Below are positions 8,177 to 60,048 of a stretch of DNA of 64,000 nucleotides, piece after piece. Origin of the DNA: Histomonas meleagridis (Eukaryota > Parabasalia > Tritrichomonadida > Dientamoebidae); NCBI GenBank assembly GCA_020186115.1, contig WSYJ01000164.1, positions 1,054,001 through 1,118,000 on the forward strand, in the 5' to 3' direction. Both the position numbers and the translations under genes were made by a program. How positions within the stretch are numbered: the first letter of the stretch is position 1; each line of letters starts with the position of its first letter. The notes below the pieces were generated by a model. That model was given only the letters and a program-made list of their open reading frames with translations. It was not told where the DNA came from and made no database searches.

Positions 8177-10819
8177 TTAATTATTTTGGTTTTCAATGTT
8201 TGCTCTAATGCGTTCCTCTACTTCTATTCCTTTTTGTTGGATGAGGAACTTTACAATGTCTATGTGACCTTTTTCAAATGCATGTGTAATTGCTGTAAGA
8301 AACATTAAATATAAATTTCAAATTAATGATTCAAATAGCAAATCTTTGATTAAAACTTCAAACTAAATAAAATAACATCTTTAATATTAATATCAATTTT
8401 ATCTTGTTCAACAAGTATTTTAACAACTTCCAAATTTCCGATATCACATGCATGAATTAGCAAAGTATAAAATCCTTTAAACAAACTCCAAAAATTCCAA
8501 TAAAACATTAAAAAATTAAAATAAACGTTAAATTATCAACATAAATATCTTTCATATTTACATCGAAACCTTCTTGTTCAAGTAACAATTTAACAATTTC
8601 ATTATGTTTATTTCTGCATGCATAAACAATTCCTGTCCAAAATCATTTAAATAAATACCAAAAGCATAATTTAAACGTTATAAAAATCCAAGAAATATTA
8701 AAAGAAATAAATAAACATTTTTAGCCATTATATCAATTTCCTTTTGCTCAAGAAGTATTTTTACAGTTTCAATATTTCCATCACGACAAGCACAAATAAA
8801 TGGTGTTAGCAACAAAATAAATTAACTCCAAAATTAAAAATGAAAAAGTAAAAATATTGATCAAACTATGAAATTATTAAATTAATATCTTTTACATTAA
8901 TATCAATTCCTTCTTTTCCAAGAAGTAATTTAATAATTTGATCATTATTTCTTCTACATGCATAAGTAAATGCTACCCAAAATAAAGAAAATAATTATTA
9001 CATAACTCAAAAAATCATCAAATAAAAGAAGCAAATTTGAAGTAATAAAAATATATATCTTTAAGATTAACATCTAATGCAGGTTCAGCAAGAAGTAATT
9101 TAACAACTTCGGTATATCCATTATCACATGCAAACATTAAAGAAGTACAAAATTATTTGATTAAATTCCAAATATTAAATGTTAACTTCAATTTTTTCAT
9201 ATAAAAATTATCTTGTGCATTAATATCAATTCCTTTATGCATAAGAAGTAATTTCACAATGTTAGAATAACCACTTTCAGATGATATAATTAGCGCTGTT
9301 TTATGTAACACAAATTAATTCCGAATAATAATATAAAACTTCGATTTCTTAATATAAACTTTAAATAAAATGATAAAAATATTTTTAATATTTACATCAA
9401 TTCCATCTTGTTCAAGAAGAATTTGCATAACATCATAATATCCATTCTTACATGCAATAATAAGAGGTGAATTATCAAATATAAAAAATAAATTTCAAAA
9501 ATTATAAACAAATTTCAAATTAATTTAAAAAAACATTTTTGAAATTGATATCAATTCCTTCTTGTTTAAGAAGTAATTTAACAACATCAGTACATTCATT
9601 TTCGCAAGCGATTATAAGTGCTATATTTTAAATCTAATATAAACACCAGAAATATAAATTTTAACATCAATAAATGATAATAAATTTCATTTATTTTAAT
9701 TCCGTCCATTTTTATAATTTGTTGAACAAGTTCAATATTACCTGATTGAACCGAAAATTGCAAAAGTTCATTAATTACTTTATTTTCTTTATTAAACATA
9801 TTGAAGAGATAAATATTTCCAACTTTAGCAGCTTCTTCAATAATTTTCTCATTAATAGTTAATCCTTCATTCATAAGGAACGAAAGAATTTCAAAATTAG
9901 AAAATTGGATACATTTAATACCCAAATCGATTAAATTAATTTCGATTAATTTTTGATCATAAAGATAATAAAATATTTCATTTCGATGTAATTCAATTGC
10001 AGCTTCATAAGATCCGACAAAAGAAGCATTGCTTTGCTCACATAAATGTATAATTTCATGATTTCCACCTAATACTGCATATTTTCCAGTGCTTTGTAAA
10101 TTCGCGCCATTTAACATTAAATATTTGAAACATTTAATTGATCCGAAAAATGCTGCATAATCAATAAGTGTAACATTATATCTACTTACATATGAAAACC
10201 TTTCATAAAGTGATGGTTCAATTGATTGATTAAAATTAAAGTTACTTTGTGTTGCAATTTCTTGAAGTTTATCAATGTCATCATTACGAAGTGCTTGTGC
10301 AATATCTAATGGATTAACTCCATCTTCTACAAGCTTTTTATGAAGTTTCCAATCATCTTTTTCAAGTTCTTCTTTGTTTGTAAAGAATTGATTACTGTAT
10401 TGTAAATTTTCTTTTGGTATATCATCTTTAGTTTTATAATGCGAAAAGTATAACGTAGCTTTGTTTTTGATTAATTCGGGATCTATTAGTTTATTTTCAA
10501 GCATTTTCTCAAGAAGATAAATAGATTCTTTGGATTTAATACGAAGAAGAAATTGCGAAAAAATGGTGATGATCTTATGTTCAACTGTTGAACATTTTTC
10601 TTCTTGTTTGTCAATTTCATTCAAAAAACTGATATAAACTTGGGCGTCTTGTGTTTTTGAAACAAAAGAATAATAAACAAGTTGACAAATGATTAGATTA
10701 TAAGAATATGGATTTTCAGAAAATGAGCCAAATAATTGGATAACTGATTCAACGCATGTCTCTAGATTATTTTCATCCAGTTGAAAAATTTCCTTTTCCA
10801 AAGTGAGTAAGTTTTGCAT
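8177..10819 (-). CDS. DUF3447/ankyrin-repeat protein, split into ten coding blocks
   Basis: Block 1 (10819-9680) carries a DUF3447-type N-terminal region (WKLHKKLVEDGVNPLDIAQA, FFGSIKCFKYLMLNGANL) and a first ankyrin unit. Continuous translation stops at 9596. Nine more coding blocks follow on the same strand: 9624-9535, 9470-9381, 9299-9210, 9146-9057, 8976-8887, 8806-8717, 8636-8547, 8466-8377 and 8296-8177. The eight middle ones are exactly 30 codons, each a stop-free ankyrin unit of the form T(A/P)L..AC..G..EVVKLLLEQ.GIDINIKD. The last ends in a natural C-terminus (IENQNN) and TAA at 8177-8179. Joined in phase the product would be about 659 residues. The spacers have stops in frame and lack GT-AG ends. 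First ATG is 10819, but family similarity runs back to a TTG at 10867, so the original start may be lost. Joining is inferred. Confidence 0.6.
8297..9679 (-). repeat. ankyrin unit plus AT-rich spacer array
   Basis: Alternating 90-bp ankyrin coding units and non-coding spacers. Spacer lengths from 3' to 5' of the gene are 80, 80, 80, 80, 80, 63, 81, 64 and 55 bases. Spacers are almost pure A/T and several share TTTGGA(A/G)TTNAT about 25-35 bases before the next unit (9163, 8823, 8483, weaker at 8653 and 9314). They therefore look homologous to one another and duplicated together with the coding unit. Confidence 0.75.
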
Positions 10820-11094
10820 TAAAGAAAATGAAATATTTTTTCTGTATCGTTCAATTTGACGATTCAAAATTACCCTTTGTTCGAGGGTTCTAATGCGATC
10901 ATTCTTGATTCAATTTTATGGGGCCCAATTTTTATTCGTTTTTAACAGAAATTTCAATATGCAATGTAAAGTATTCATTCGTAATGTTGAAGAACATTCG
11001 AATTAAATAAATTATGTAAATGAGTTCAACGAAAGATATAAAAATAAAATAACATTAATTTTTTAATTCTTTGGAACAAATTTAAAATAAAAAG

Positions 11095-38982: not shown

Positions 38983-40854
38983 TTAACTCTTTAATACATT
39001 ATAGGGACATCTTGGTGCAGTATGATCTGTTGAATTGCATATGCTACACGCATATTTCTTTCATTTTCGTGTAGCACCAGGTCTTTCAACATTTTGCCTT
39101 GGATGAGTAAAATGTGCACCTGGTAAGAGCAGATTGTCTGGAGGTAATATATCTTTGTCATTTTCAGATTCATTACCATGTTCTATAGCATGAAGATCAT
39201 TTATGGTTTGATCCATAATTTCTCTTATTCGATTCGATCTGTTTGCGTTACTAAAATACTTCTCAAACTTATTAATACATCCATTAAATGACCAGTCATT
39301 ATTCAAAGCTTTTTCTTTTTTGAATGTTTGAATACTATTTGGTTGATCTGGTTGTTTATCAAAGCTTCTCCGCCATCTATTTGGAATATCGTTTAAAGTT
39401 ATCAAAGGAAAATCATCCTTTAACATTTGTTCAAGCATCAAATGACGACATGGTAATCCAAACATTTGGTGGTTTTTGCAACAATTGTTTGAAAAATTAA
39501 TAGAAAGTACCCCTTTTTTTTGTAAATCAATATACTCTGATAGAATTATTGCCTGTGCATAAGAACCAATTTTTTCCATGTCATTAAAATTCATTAACTG
39601 CTCAGGTAAGCTAATCTTCTTTTCGTTAATGGATGTTAGTAATAACCTTTCACCCCTAATATATAAAGCTCTAACAAGATTTGATAATGTTTGTAATTTG
39701 TGTTCTATTAAGTTTTTCAAAGCACCAAAGAAACCCTCAATTCTATTTGTAGTCACGTTATCACAATGTCCATAAGTAGAAATTATACTGGGAAGCCAGT
39801 GCTCCTTTTCTTGTATCAGTTTTTTGAGAAGCCTGGATGATTTTTGGTTTGGATGTTCCTGAATATTTTTCTCACATGCTTCCAAGAATTCTTATTCAGT
39901 GATTTCAAGACAACGCATCTTCTGATATAAATCAAACATTTCATTTCCCACCTTCGACTGAATATTACGACCAATATGTACAGCACAAAATATAATCATA
40001 CAATTTGGAAATACTGTCTTTAAAGCTTGTATTTGCGTTTTGTTTCTGTCACAAATAAACAAACGTATTTCTCCAACTTTTTCTTTAACAATTGTAAAAT
40101 AATCTACAAAAGCTGATAGTGTTCTCGATGATATAATTGAAAATGAATAAAGTTGACTTCTTGCATTTTCATCTTCAGATAAAATAACCAATAGTGGCAT
40201 TCCAAAAAAATATGTACAAGAAGTATCATCTATTATACCAATATATTTTGAATAATCCGAATGAGTAATTGGATCGTGAAAAACGTAGCATGACTCCATC
40301 TTATTCTTCTTATTTACATTAATTGAATTAGACCAATTTTTCCAATTTTTCATCTCATTGAATAAATTGCTCATTTCATTGTTTTTTAATTCTGCTATTT
40401 CTTTGCGCCGAGCAGAATATAGAACGTCTTTTGTACAAGTCAATCTTTCCTGCATTCTTAGTGTATAAGCAGAAACTTCCATTCTTGTAGCATATCTAAT
40501 CCTCTCCTTTTGAGAAGTTGTTAAATGATTTCTAATGCGATGTTGTACAAGTGCTCCCATTGTGTGCGTGTGTACATTATCACATGAATGGAATGTAGCA
40601 ATTTTAGTTTGTTGACAATAGTTGAATCTAACACAAGCTTTGCAATTATAAATTGTGGTTCTATGTTGACAACAAAAGATCTGTAGTGAGCGTGAATTTC
40701 CTGTTGAGAGAGAAACGAATCGACATTTAAAATGATCTGAAACTTCTCGAACTCTTGCAATAAGTGAAGGAACATCCAGAAATAAAGCACCATCTATATC
40801 TTTAAAAGCTGAAAGAAGAGAGGGAGAAGTTTGATAATCGTCATAGTCGTACAT
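38983..40854 (-). pseudogene. MULE transposase with two in-frame stops
   Basis: One reading frame from ATG 40854 to TAA at 38983, interrupted by TAA near 39888 (after CLEITE) and TGA near 39060 (before KKYACSIC). N-terminal Cys/His region, then the DDE core (KYIGIIDDTSCTY, FICDRNKTQIQALKTVFPN, FCAVHIGRN), NRIEGFFGALKN, a SWIM zinc finger (CCKNHQMFGLPCRHLM) and a C-terminal zinc knuckle (CSICNSTDHTAPRC). The internal TAA is shared with the right-arm fragment, so it predates the inversion. No frameshift is needed in this copy, so it decayed recently. Confidence 0.85.
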
Positions 40855-40887
40855 TGATGGTATTAGTTCAAATATGCCTACTTAGTT

Positions 40888-43021: not shown

Positions 43022-44276
43022 TTGTGACAGAAACAAAACGCAAATACAAGCTTTAAAGACAGTATTTCCAAATTGTATGATTATATTTTGTGCTGTACAT
43101 ATTGGTCGTAATATTCAGTCGAAGGTGGGAAATGAAATGTTTGATTTATATCAGAAGATGCGTTGTCTTGAAATCACTGAATAAGAATTCTTGGAAGCAT
43201 GTGAGAAAAATATTCAGGAACATCCAAACCAAAAATCATCCAGGCTTCTCAAAAAACTGATACAAGAAAAGGAGCACTGGCTTCCCAGTATAATTTCTAC
43301 TTATGGACATTGTGATAACGTGACTACAAATAGAATTGAGGGTTTCTTTGGTGCTTTGAAAAACTTAATAGAACACAAATTACAAACATTATCAAATCTT
43401 GTTAGAGCTTTATATATTAGGGGTGAAAGGTTATTACTAACATCCATTAACGAAAAGAAGATTAGCTTACCTGAGCAGTTAATGAATTTTAATGACATGG
43501 AAAAAATTGGTTCTTATGCACAGGCAATAATTCTATCAGAGTATATTGATTTACAAAAAAAAGGGGTACTTTCTATTAATTTTTCAAACAATTGTTGCAA
43601 AAACCACCAAATGTTTGGATTACCATGTCGTCATTTGATGCTTGAACAAATGTTAAAGGATGATTTTCCTTTGATAACTTTAAACGATATTCCAAATAGA
43701 TGGCGGAGAAGCTTTGATAAACAACCAGATCAACCAAATAGTATTCAAACATTCAAAAAAGAAAAAGCTTTGAATAATGACTGGTTATTTAATGGATGTA
43801 TTAATAAGTTTGAGAAGTATTTTAGTAACGCAAACAGATCGAATCGAATAAGAGAAATTATGGATCAAACCATAAATGATCTTCATGCTATAGAACATGG
43901 TAATGAATCTGAAAAATGACAAAGATATATTACCTCCAGACAATCTGCTCTTACCAGGTGCACATTTTACTCATCCAAGGCAAAATGTTGAAAGACCTGG
44001 TGCTACACGAAAAATGAAAGAAAATATGCGTGTAGCATATGCAATTCAACAGATCATACTGCACCAAGATGTCCCTATAATGTATTAAAGAGTTAAATTA
44101 TATTAATAAAAAATTTAATTCTTATTGTTATATTGTTCTGACTTATAAATATTTATTTTTATAAGTATTATAATACCAATGTTTTTATTTCTTGCTTTTG
44201 TAATTTTATTCAAAAAGCTTTTATAAAGTATTGAATATTTGTCATTTAAAAAGTTGGTAGATTTAAGCGATTATCC
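43022..44276 (+). mobile_element. truncated MULE, right arm
   Basis: Begins abruptly at the sequence for CDRNKTQIQALK and runs to the 76-bp TIR (44201-44276). The 5' half and its TIR are missing. It shares the internal TAA with the left copy and has extra one-base insertions near 43914 and 44013 that break the zinc-knuckle part. Confidence 0.87.
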
Positions 44277-45507
44277 GATTTTCTTCCAAATTTATGCTTC
44301 ATAAATTTCTTTTTTGAAAAGTTTACTTGATCGTTCACGATTCAACCAATATAAATTAATTAAAAAGTTAAAATGATTTAACGTTCTCTGCAAGTTTCAC
44401 AAAAATTTTGTTAAGAGTGAGACTTTGTTGATAATTAGAGTTTAATGTCATCTATATCTACTATTATTTACCAAGGCATTGAAATCATTTTATAATTTTT
44501 CAGATTTTTTTCTAGATAAATTTACCAAATGATTAATTTAGTTTTTCTATCATGGAAATCCCGAATTTTTTCTCCATACAGGTATATAAATGGGTTAGAG
44601 TTTTAATATTTTATTTTGATTCATGGATACGTAATATATTTAAATTATATCGAGAACAAACACCCCACAAATAAGCACTCAAATCAACTGCCAATTTTCG
44701 GGGCCGTCCCAAGTTGACGATAGTTATACGATATGATTTGCACTTCGAGTAAAACACACAAATACGATGTAAAGTATAGAAATCATGCCTAAAATTAAAA
44801 ATTGATTTGAAACAGCTGTAATCATTAAAATAAAAATATGATTGGTAGGTAATAAATTCCATTAGGTATTCTAAAATTTCTGAAGACAGGTTTTTTAAAT
44901 TAAAGTTAAATTTAGACCATTTTCATAAATTTGTCTTGTGGATTTTTCTTTAAATGAAAGGTGTTATTGTGGGTACATTAGGTATTATCGTGATGTTGTT
45001 TTTTGGTTTGAAATCAATTTTACCTTGAGAAAAAATTATTTGAACTTTTCACTTCATCTTTGTATACAAGTAAATTATTACCTTGAAGGTATAATTATTA
45101 ACAGCAGGTATGTTTTTTAATGATTGGTAATTTTTGAATTTACGATTGCTTTGATATCCATTTTTTTTTCAATTAACGTACAATTTTTGACCGTTTATTT
45201 ATCCGAGCATTTCCTTCAACAATATGATCCAAAAATCACCAGCTTTTGAGATTATTTTGATCGTATTTTTTCAGAGATTTTTTTTTGCCAAATCCTATCT
45301 TAATTGAAAAATGATGTTTATCACTTATTTTGATTCAAAGGTACTTTCCACACCAATTTATGCAAATTGGAGAATAAAGTTTGAATATAAACGTTAAAAA
45401 ACTTTTCCGAAAAATGTTTTCAAAAAGTTGTTATTTGAAAGGGTGTTGTTGTGTGGCAAACAGTTTCAGTGGTTTACACAAATTTACTTCACTTCTTTCC
45501 TTGGAAC
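44277..45507. other. long intergenic stretch of the right arm
   Basis: 1231 bases matching 37571-38802. It contains a minus-strand frame of 83 residues (44862-44611; IVNLGRPRKLAVDLSAYLWGV) of unknown kind, broken in the left arm. Promoter side of the EF-hand gene with TTCACTT at 45488. Confidence 0.45.
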
Positions 45508-57643: not shown

Positions 57644-59397
57644 TTATATTTGTTCAATAAATTTTTCTTCTTTGAAATCTTCGGCAAATGGATCTTCTTC
57701 AATATTTATATTACTTATTCCTGTAGTAAATGTATTCATAGTTTCATTTTCATTTTCATTTTCTTCTGATTTATCATTTTCATATATTTCTTCTTTTTTA
57801 TTTCGAATATGTTTCATTAATATAATTAATAAGATGATAATAACTATTACTACAACAATTACACAAACTGAAATGATAATAATCGTTGTTTGATTTCATT
57901 GTTTTGATTATTATTATCATTATCATTAGTGTAAAACATTGTAAAGAAATTGGAATAATAATTATAATAAGTCGAATAAATAACAATCGTATAATTGTAA
58001 TAAATAAATTCTGTTTCAATATATGAAAATGTCCAATTATTTATATATAATGAAAATGATATCGTTTTTGTTTCATAAACAGTTAATGAATGTGTAATTG
58101 ATAATGTAATTGTTAATGTATATGAAAATGATAATGATAATGAAATATCACTTTGAAGTGATTCAGTAAGTGTATCTGAATTAGAAAATTTATTCGATTG
58201 ACTAAATGAATATAATTCTGAGAATGAAATTGAGTCTGACTGTGCATATGTATTCGATTGACTAAATGAATGTATTGGAAGTGGTTCGCATATTCCTTCT
58301 GTGGATTCGCTAACAACATCTAATTGTCCAAAATGATCCTCTACATATGTTGGATATGTGATAACACTTGTAAAAACATTATAAAATGCACCTTCACCAA
58401 TATTTGGTTCTGAATCTCCATAATAATAAATGCATTGAAGATTATAACAATTCCCAAATGCTGAACTTAAAATTTCTCTTATTCCATTTCCAAGTGTTAA
58501 TATCCTTAAATTAGAACATGATGCAAATGCTGAACTTCCAATTGTTGTAACTGAATTTGGAATTGTAATGTTTTTGATTGATGAACACAATGAAAATGAT
58601 GAACCACCAATTGTTATAACATTTCCTCCAAATATAATCGTTTCTAAATTAGAACATGATAAAAACACATTAATTCCAATATTTGTGACTGAGTTACCAA
58701 AATTAACTGAAACAACTGAAGGCCATTCTGAAAATGCATTGTTTGGAATTGAATAAATATTTCCACTGATAATTATAAATTTTGTTATGTTTTGATATTT
58801 ATCAATATCTTCAAATTCATTTAAGTTCATGATTGAAAGTGTTGAATTATCATAGTTAAATATTTGCAATGAATTTGCAAAAAACATAACAAATACAAAA
58901 ATATTTTCAATTTTTTTCTTATCTTTTACTTTCAATATATATTTGGTCGTCAATATTTTCTGAACTGAAACCGTATTTTTCTGATAAAATTTGATATAAA
59001 TAACCGGAAATATAATTGAAAAAATGACAGTTAAATGAAGTAAATCATTCAAAATGTTTGGTCCTTCTTCGTTATCGTTTAGCATCATAAAAAAATGTGA
59101 AAATTCACCTTTTAGAGAAGATATATCTTCATAATATTTGTGTAACGTTTCCTCAAATGTGATATCTTTGTCAAATATATCAATTTCGAAGTCTTTTTTC
59201 AAAATGTTTGAAAAATATGTTCTTCGAAATTTTTGTTTGTTATTAAAATCTTGACGTACAATTGTTGTATATTCATTGTTTTGTATCAAATTTAAAAATA
59301 TTTTGTTTATCAAAAATTTATAATTATGATGAAATCTTTTGAATTTTTTGTTCATAATTTCATTAATTGATACTTCCCTATCACATTTGTAAGTCAT
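57644..59397 (-). pseudogene. BspA-like LRR_5 surface protein, frameshifted at its membrane helix
   Basis: The frame from 59397 gives 512 residues, ending RLLSFQFV at 57859. An overlapping frame supplies the missing Ile/Val-rich transmembrane helix and a tail ending EEDPFAEDFKEEKFIEQI at 57644; the shift is near 57893. The N-terminus is long (about 160 residues) before a signal-like segment (IFVFVMFFANSLQIF). Only five or six LRR_5 repeats remain, then the cap CIYYYGDSEPNIG, a Ser-rich stalk (SQSNTYAQSDSIS) and the Tyr-rich segment YYNYTIVIYSTYYNYYSNFF. The tail matches that of BspA A in its DPFA.DF core. Confidence 0.8.
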
Positions 59398-60048
59398 TCC
59401 TTCTTGTTTTGGTGGGTTTGTATTTGGAACATTTCTTCTTGAATAATAGAAGGTGTAATAAGATTTGTATCGTCTCTATAACGTTCAACTGTGCCTAAAA
59501 TGATGAACAAATGAAGGATTTTCATGTTTCAACTTGCAATATATTTTAAGACCTTCACTAAATACACATCGGCTGTCTCAAAAGGTTAAAATCTCACGGT
59601 TAAACTTTAAAAAACTTGTTGTTTAATTGTAGTTTTTCTATTTAATTTTGAAACGTTTCTTTGAATATTTGAAAATGTAAATTAAAGGAACGACTTTAAA
59701 ACATTATAAAAACACTTTTAAATAATATAAGGAATATATGTCATAAAGTTGAGTTTATGCTTTAAAATGATATGTAGAATGCATATTAAATTTTTTTATC
59801 TATGAATTTTATCTGAAGAAAAATGTTATGTGTTTGTGAATATAATCATATGCACTGCAATATTAATATATGACGAATTAAATCGCTTATAAAAAAGCAA
59901 TAAACCATATTTCAATTATTCATTATTTATTCAAAACAAACACAAGAAACTCAACAAATTATGAAGAAATACAATTTAATGTTTGACTTAATATGAAATC
60001 CAAACTCGAAATTCCTTAAAAACAAAAACAAATTTTCACACGAAATTT
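59398..60048. other. intergenic between two BspA genes
   Basis: 651 AT-rich bases. A short minus-strand frame from about 59530 (MKILHLFIILGTVER) approaches the BspA start in another phase and could be a misplaced signal peptide. Nothing else seen. Confidence 0.4.

Follow-up and report, generated by a model that had tools for sequence, protein, structure and literature searches.

An ankyrin-repeat gene of Histomonas meleagridis broken by chains of 17-nucleotide elements that are most likely cut from its RNA

The window analyzed here is a stretch of 64,000 nucleotides (nt) from Histomonas meleagridis, a parasite of poultry (contig WSYJ01000164.1, positions 1,054,001 to 1,118,000 of the forward strand; coordinates below count from the first letter of this stretch). 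On its minus strand lies an interrupted ankyrin gene that begins with a Met codon at 10819 and ends with a TAA stop at 8179-8177. Taken as a whole, the sequence makes it probable that this is an intact gene, encoding a DUF3447/ankyrin-repeat protein of 692 amino acids, and that it is part of a very large H. meleagridis family. In the mechanism we propose, chains of A/T-rich elements, 17 nt and rarely 18 nt long, would split the β-turns between the ankyrin repeats and, since the elements sit between neighboring codons, two or three codons per loop would be stranded as exons of 3 nt. The sequence gives strong support to the view that the protein lacks the elements. They are most likely cut from RNA as micro-introns, each 17-mer being excised, on this proposal, without the GT-AG ends and the ACTAACACACAG signal of ordinary trichomonad introns, although the stage at which they are lost is something we infer.

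A first-pass annotation, made from the letters of the window, had described a DUF3447/ankyrin gene broken by stops after its first unit and followed by nine stop-free ankyrin blocks, and this anatomy was confirmed. The first block reached 39.0 bits against Pfam PF11929 (cut-off 26.9), which places it in DUF3447, and its frame runs into stops after one ankyrin-like unit. Downstream, nine of nine further ankyrin blocks are free of stops, and the final one has a natural C-terminus; their anchors lie at 9618, 9464, 9293, 9140, 8970, 8800, 8630, 8460, and 8290, that is, at spacings of 154, 171, and 153 nt and then five times 170 nt. The annotation had also called the spacers nearly pure A/T. They are indeed A/T-rich, but each spacer of about 68 nt consists of four (sometimes three) elements of 17 nt with single codons between them, in the pattern KD/17/x/17/x/17/G/17/x TAL, where slashes mark element borders. 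In the window, every spacer thus holds two or three stranded sense codons between A/T-rich elements of 17 nt (18 nt in three cases). The blocks do belong to one protein and the interruptions must be skipped, as had been claimed; the picture of one spacer per block did not hold and gave way to a chain of 17-nt elements with one-codon exons. In total, the gene contains 33 elements (the first junction was parsed by hand), of which 30 measure 17 nt and three 18 nt. Once these 564 nt are subtracted from the 2,643 nt that run from the Met to the stop codon, 2,079 nt remain, or 692 codons and the stop. At the 18-nt elements, the frame is kept only when all 18 nt are dropped.

Nor is this one odd gene. 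In the 43.28-Mb assembly that holds the window, a 32-nt core of the ankyrin exon has 4,259 copies and a 27-nt core of the spacer 5,017 copies (both with up to three mismatches), and reversed-pattern controls gave 0 in either case. The array region of the window has 79 matches in the genome, which, apart from the region itself, are 64-80% identical to it, mostly 65-70%. The 30 array loci used below are the best-scoring of these matches (L005, L007-L009, L011, and L012 overlap in one array on contig C36), and identical units were collapsed before units were counted. Located with an ankyrin-block profile in 29 loci and the window, the spacings between units are quantized, being 170 nt in 296 of 423 listed cases, 153 in 75, 173 in 16, 150 in 13, and 154 in 6, with units in overlapping loci counted more than once. 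The two main classes differ by exactly 17 nt. When 170-nt units were aligned, three variable triplets at 20-nt steps and a conserved GGA stood out in an otherwise uniform spacer, whose consensus is GAT/17/RAW/17/NNN/17/GGA/17/NAW ACA GCA CTT. Dropping the 17-mers restores KD-x-x-G-x-TAL, a normal ankyrin β-turn (e.g., KDKDGKTALILASEKGYTEIVKLLLEQEGIDINA). An exact parse into codons and 17-mers was obtained for 250 of 265 unique units; by eye, eight of the other 15 have one 18-mer, two have an 8-nt remnant, and five are otherwise irregular. The two remnants occur in 161-nt units of L017 and L027, in which they replace the last 17-mer. The third loop codon encodes Gly in 169 of 200 unique 170-nt units, while 153-nt units lack exactly the first element and keep the Gly in 28 of 31 cases. 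The arrays would expand by duplication and homogenization of a 170-nt (four-element) or 153-nt (three-element) unit.

Whether the loop triplets are codons was addressed by counting stops in the 200 unique 170-nt units, the expected numbers being derived from independent columns, which is a rough null for related sequences. The exon frame contains 1 stop, whereas 108.5 were expected; in the two wrong exon frames, 287 were found against 289.9 and 1101 against 1098.4. Since the profile that finds the units reads the exon and may lose a few stop-bearing exons, the exon count is slightly biased, but the loop lies outside the profile. There, the four loop codons show 0, 0, 0, and 0 stops against 6.4, 7.8, 0.0, and 17.9 expected (0 against 32.1 in total); the fourth adjoins the next exon, and the three truly stranded codons alone have 0 against 14.2. 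When the grid was shifted by -9 to +10 nt on the same sequences, those of the 19 other shifts for which at least 10 stops were expected gave ratios of observed to expected from 0.63 (8 against 12.7) to 1.06. Pfam Ank_2 scores agree with these counts: five window units reached 177.1 bits (1e-52) with the 17-mers left out, 141.0 bits with the whole spacer left out, and 150.2 bits in a 34-residue control, and without the 17-mers they read as ankyrin repeats of 33-34 residues with the D-x-x-G-x-T-A/P-L turn. A single intron of 77 nt (or 68 nt) per loop, with no stranded codons, would be the simplest reading of the first-pass map. However, it is barely credible, and we regard it as ruled out by the stop test and by Pfam scores that are 27-36 bits lower; it also leaves aside the 153-nt class, which lacks exactly one 17-mer and retains Gly in the proportion given above. 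Two further candidates were rejected. Hidden AG acceptors (ACAG/CA in the array consensus) fail because the cuts would fall in the Thr-Ala of the repeat and because several window loops have no AG, and frameshifting in place of removal fails because consecutive units need different frame changes (170, 153, 154, and 171 nt), for which no single shift works.

The complete gene, on the minus strand throughout, can be laid out as follows. The first coding block (9686-10819) is an open frame of 378 codons from Met to Glu that comprises DUF3447 and the first ankyrin-like unit and has 32 relatives. Loop 0 (9628-9685), the hand-parsed and least certain of the nine, contains elements at 9685-9669 (17 nt), 9665-9648 (18 nt), and 9644-9628 (17 nt) around the codons GAT (9668-9666) and GGT (9647-9645). 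It leads into ankyrin block 1 (9535-9627, 31 codons) and then loop 1 (9477-9534), with elements at 9534-9517 (18 nt), 9513-9497, and 9493-9477 and two GAA codons, which reads KN/E/E/DNSPL once the elements are dropped. Block 2 (9381-9476, 32 codons) is followed by loop 2 (9303-9380; elements 9380-9363 of 18 nt, 9359-9343, 9339-9323, and 9319-9303; KN/K/E/G/KTAL), and block 3 (9207-9302, 32 codons) by the three-element loop 3 (9150-9206; 9206-9190, 9186-9170, and 9166-9150; QDN/E/G/CTSL). All remaining loops have four elements, and the blocks before them have 31 codons each: block 4 (9057-9149) and loop 4 (8980-9056; 9056-9040, 9036-9020, 9016-9000, and 8996-8980; KD/Q/D/N/WVAF), block 5 (8887-8979) and loop 5 (8810-8886; 8886-8870, 8866-8850, 8846-8830, and 8826-8810; KD/I/T/G/LTPF), block 6 (8717-8809) and loop 6 (8640-8716; 8716-8700, 8696-8680, 8676-8660, and 8656-8640; KN/N/N/G/WTGI), block 7 (8547-8639) and loop 7 (8470-8546; 8546-8530, 8526-8510, 8506-8490, and 8486-8470; KD/N/N/G/YTLL), and block 8 (8377-8469) and loop 8 (8300-8376; 8376-8360, 8356-8340, 8336-8320, and 8316-8300; KD/E/A/E/LTAI). 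Block 9 with the C-terminal tail and the stop TAA occupies 8177-8299 (41 codons including the stop).

The elements share the pattern [GA]TTT.TTT......TTT, with weak ends of the form [G/A]TTT...TTT. Among the 800 elements of the 200 unique units, AG at the end was found in 0, GT at the start in 25, and both together in 0; AG ends were likewise absent from the 30 listed window elements (0 of 30), and neither the trichomonad GTATGT nor the fused branch/3' motif ACTAACACACAG was found in those 30. The first-pass annotation was therefore right about the missing GT-AG and GTATGT ends, and right too that trichomonads possess strict GTATGT introns, one of which (GTATGT...ACTAACACACAG) interrupts a DHHC-type gene of H. 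meleagridis (L067; gene type by eye). The classic intron end ACTAACACACAG was also seen in a kinase-like gene (L068; type by eye). As an exact 12-mer, ACTAACACACAG has 3 copies in 43 Mb (control 2), two of them in an intron-like context. Since GTATGT introns are present in the same genome, the 17-nt elements form a separate class. It is doubtful that the ordinary spliceosome removes the elements as introns with degenerate sites, in the manner of the tiny introns of heterotrich ciliates, a special case that falls within the reading we favor. Stentor introns of 15-16 nt (PMC9505925) indicate that 17 nt is not an impossible length, and a U6 gene with an intact ACAGAGA box was found at 43.7 bits, just under the cut-off of 44 (U6 being the only spliceosomal component sought). 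On the other hand, the Stentor introns are mostly GU-AG according to the same source, those of Trichomonas vaginalis are described as all GT/AG and at least 23 nt long (PMC12316389), and the AG and GT counts given above, together with the classic intron of L067, speak against this special case. The cutting may be done by a derived spliceosome or by something else.

A second alternative is that the messenger RNA (mRNA) keeps the elements and that ribosomes hop over the 17-mers one by one, possibly with help from the ankyrin chain as it folds. Such translational bypassing has precedents in phage T4 gene 60 and in the 81 inserts of Magnusiomyces mitochondria (PMC5009743), and a signal from the nascent chain would explain why elements were found only in ankyrin β-turns, while the Ras domains scored, and almost all of the kinase domains scored, have no interruption. 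We nevertheless consider it unlikely. In only 9 of 800 cases does the last triplet of the element match the take-off codon (two or more of the three bases agree in 127), so that the hallmark of T4 is missing, and a protein that required about 30 hops, each separated from the next by one codon, would resemble neither T4 nor Magnusiomyces. It should be added that matched codons mark T4 gene 60, and that imperfect matches between take-off and landing sites have been noted for Magnusiomyces (PMC5009743).

The annotation had also proposed DNA rearrangement from a germline cassette store, which found no support. Excision at the level of DNA, or rearrangement of cassettes before expression, would suit the repeated cassettes and the short, A/T-rich elements, but it is highly improbable: thousands of element-bearing units stand in the ordinary assembly, and no element-free copy of the array repeat type was evident among the best 150 of 9,008 candidates scored. 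Within these 150, the best long uninterrupted match to the repeat type had 54% identity, and shorter matches (60-78% over about 243-264 nt) would fit 153-nt units that are read through. Internal eliminated sequences of ciliates carry the dinucleotide TA at both ends, and parabasalids are not known to have a second nucleus. The Histomonas elements resemble such sequences in being brief A/T-rich insertions without whose loss the gene cannot be read, but differ from them in being present in the assembled genome and in running from [GA]TTT to TTT, with no TA at the two ends.

Several observations weigh against the reading of an intact gene whose elements are cut from RNA, the most general being that every step after the DNA is deduced. 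Array units differ from each other by a nonsynonymous divergence (pN) of 0.176 and a synonymous divergence (pS) of 0.185, with a spacer mismatch of 0.137, and this near equality means that purifying selection on the whole exon is weak, so that the case rests on the avoidance of stops and on the loop codons. For the five 170-nt window units compared with the arrays, pS was 0.396, pN 0.299, and spacer mismatch 0.390 (0.56 would be expected for random letters of array composition), and yet every window loop still parses, which is a point in favor of the reading. We conclude from these rates that the units are homogenized, that selection on the average residue is weak, and that the window array is old and diverged. 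The variation between repeats peaks at the loop codons and at a few exon codons (2-3, 6, 7, and 9, counted from the anchor Leu) and affects first and second codon positions as well; a similar concentration is seen in repeat proteins that diversify a binding surface. The equality of pN and pS would also suit decayed or silent arrays, whether as pseudogenes or as a satellite that arose from an ankyrin exon, as would the facts that the unit length puts each of the 200 units of 170 nt out of frame with its successor and that 120 of them, and 13 of 31 units of 153 nt, show an exon-frame stop if read through. Decay is very unlikely all the same, because stops are avoided in exons and loop codons in the right frame and grid only, because Gly and loop-type residues occupy the loop codons, and because elements occur in the same turn of other ankyrin genes. 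The finding in the window is real, and a pseudogene is very unlikely.

Further points on the same side concern the motif and the relatives of the gene. The information content of the element is 9.3 bits relative to genome composition, which is little for a splicing signal, and even this value is partly inflated, because the parser placed the elements of non-array genes by such a pattern; the elements of L031 and all 18- and 16-mers were left out of the motif. Were a factor to recognize the element in all mRNAs, ordinary genes would be expected to avoid it. In 21 open frames of the window, the sense strand has 1 element-like 17-mer where synonymous shuffles give 10, and 16 where they give 30, and 0 of 80 column-permuted motifs were as low; the frames include the first block of the gene itself, where the single high-scoring 17-mer sits, and two pieces of a broken transposase-like gene. 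However, the depletion is modest and not clean, since the reversed motif, too, shows something of a deficit (5 against 10.1 and 22 against 30). A motif built from the window only gave 17 against 30 on the sense strand but 20 against 30 on the antisense strand as well, and one built from the arrays only gave 18 against 30 and 44 against 30, respectively. Owing to the smaller sense deficit with these subset motifs and to the antisense deficit with the window-only motif, we count the depletion only as a hint that the process acts on RNA. As for the relatives, fifteen of those of the first exon lie on short contigs of the European Nucleotide Archive (ENA) and are 39-52% identical to it, and their predicted proteins mostly end at or soon after the junction (...KDI, ...AQDI; P0002, P0004, P0006, and P0009), which would count against excision if any of these contigs were an mRNA. 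One of the proteins (P0005) crosses a junction that has no insert (SKN-VMFE-SALMKAC) and ends at the next; this junction is either an element-free loop or part of a processed transcript. Another (P0013) reads through a three-element loop much like those of the window (KNKIYFNDFIFQNNIWGFLKLFKTAL).

Elements were also sought outside the arrays. In 43 other ankyrin loci, some of them overlapping and with identical stretches collapsed, 86 pairs of neighboring repeats are spaced at 99 or 102 nt. Another 32 spacings fall between 110 and 180 nt, and 26 of these exceed 99 or 102 by a multiple of 17 or by one nt more than that, a class that covers 23% of values by chance (16 of 71); for five of the 26, no parse into elements was obtained. 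Clear cases of element-bearing genes are L033 (TDN/EG/LTPM), L034 (KDENG/NTPL and KDG/E/G/WTAL), L053, L058, and L075, the first three having been read by eye. A free parser, which put elements inside exons, was discarded in favor of one that admits elements only beyond codon 22 and takes the motif and the Gly as guides; it parsed 25 loops and failed with 7, and 5 of the 25 come from L031, itself an array, and 4 have spacings outside the classes of 17. The exact positions of elements in these genes, and the apparent rule that k elements fill the last k junctions of the loop, are accordingly provisional. In the two other families that were scored, the Ras and nearly all of the kinase domains lack such interruptions: all 150 scored matches to Ras domains (of 666 candidates) are single stop-free open stretches, two of which start at profile position 26. 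The kinase search gave 133 matches from the 132 candidates, out of 635, that were scored; seven contain stops and four are partial, one of them being both, and a partial match on contig C103 has the classic intron end ACTAACACACAG 272 nt further on. In the window, no non-ankyrin gene was found that would need removal of 17 nt, and when frame-fusing deletions were looked for across the window, a length of 17 nt did no better than other lengths, and the four places found for it contain no element.

TRFO_10994 of Tritrichomonas foetus and six relatives (57-66% identical) have predicted proteins that all (7 of 7) end 3 to 31 residues after a conserved D-x-x-D-x-Q-G, which is followed by V or I and then by a stretch rich in F, L, and I. 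Such ends would arise if a [GA]TTT element followed the Gly, a likeness that is suggestive only. We see an even chance that tritrichomonads run a second system of mRNA processing beside the classic spliceosome, one that would remove fixed A/U-rich micro-introns of 17 nt, without GT-AG and with one-codon exons in chains, and that would serve the ankyrin repertoire of H. meleagridis with roughly 19,000 such introns. This number is an estimate (at least 5,017 loops times about 3.8 elements) and exceeds more than 30 times the 573 introns annotated in virulent H. meleagridis, where 11,119 genes with at most one intron each were predicted by AUGUSTUS trained on a transcriptome (PMC8529796). For Tritrichomonas musculus, introns are reported in 5.66% of genes, and the main text of that report does not mention ankyrin (PMC11978803).

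The finding is more unusual than first claimed, and the process fits no known intron type. Types A and B introns of T. vaginalis are likewise short interruptions in parabasalid protein genes, some of them for ankyrin proteins, and 63 are active in the genome; the study that describes them notes no transcript with multiple introns, and three three-exon transcripts in T. stableri (PMC12316389). In contrast, the Histomonas elements are 17 nt long, lack GT-AG, number 33 in one gene, and leave single-codon exons. With the Stentor introns they share a near-fixed minimal length and a high A/U content, but those introns mostly start with GU, end with AG, and have a branch A at a fixed place (PMC9505925), whereas the elements have no AG end and are chained 3 nt apart. 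Like the bypassing elements of T4 gene 60 and Magnusiomyces, they are short frame-breaking inserts absent from the protein, and many occur per genome, as in Magnusiomyces; unlike them, they rarely match at landing, are 17-18 nt long, and occur in nuclear genes at one spot of one repeat type, as far as tested. Among the open-access papers listed (titles and openings of abstracts), nothing was found that describes, for parabasalids, 17-nt introns, chains of one-codon exons, or ankyrin arrays with interruptions. Removal of the elements from RNA would make them a new class of introns, of fixed length and without GT-AG, in a lineage believed to have hardly any introns; skipping by ribosomes would mean that bypassing operates in nuclear genes on a genome-wide scale. 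Either route would overturn the gene models of a large Histomonas family, and perhaps of Tritrichomonas as well, and would offer a compact, countable system for asking how short an intervening sequence can become and how little signal it needs.

When the joined composite protein was used as a query, no protein named as Histomonas was among the best 120 of 6,855 hits. Three H. meleagridis proteins annotated as 'cask-interacting protein (caskin) 1,2' (P0012, P0015, and P0016) are relatives of the DUF3447 exon, and P0016 seems to run into an element at its end, so that its annotated C-terminus may be wrong. Elsewhere in the genome, a protein kinase domain (G000:C78:376002-376739) lies inside an open frame reported as 22,955 codons, which would encode a giant protein. 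In the window itself, transposase-like open frames at 39061-40881 (minus strand) and about 43185-44900 (plus strand) share long identical protein stretches and are each broken by stops. At 57859-59475 (minus strand), a transmembrane-like C-terminus continues in another frame near 57898, where no 17-nt element is present and a small indel is perhaps responsible.

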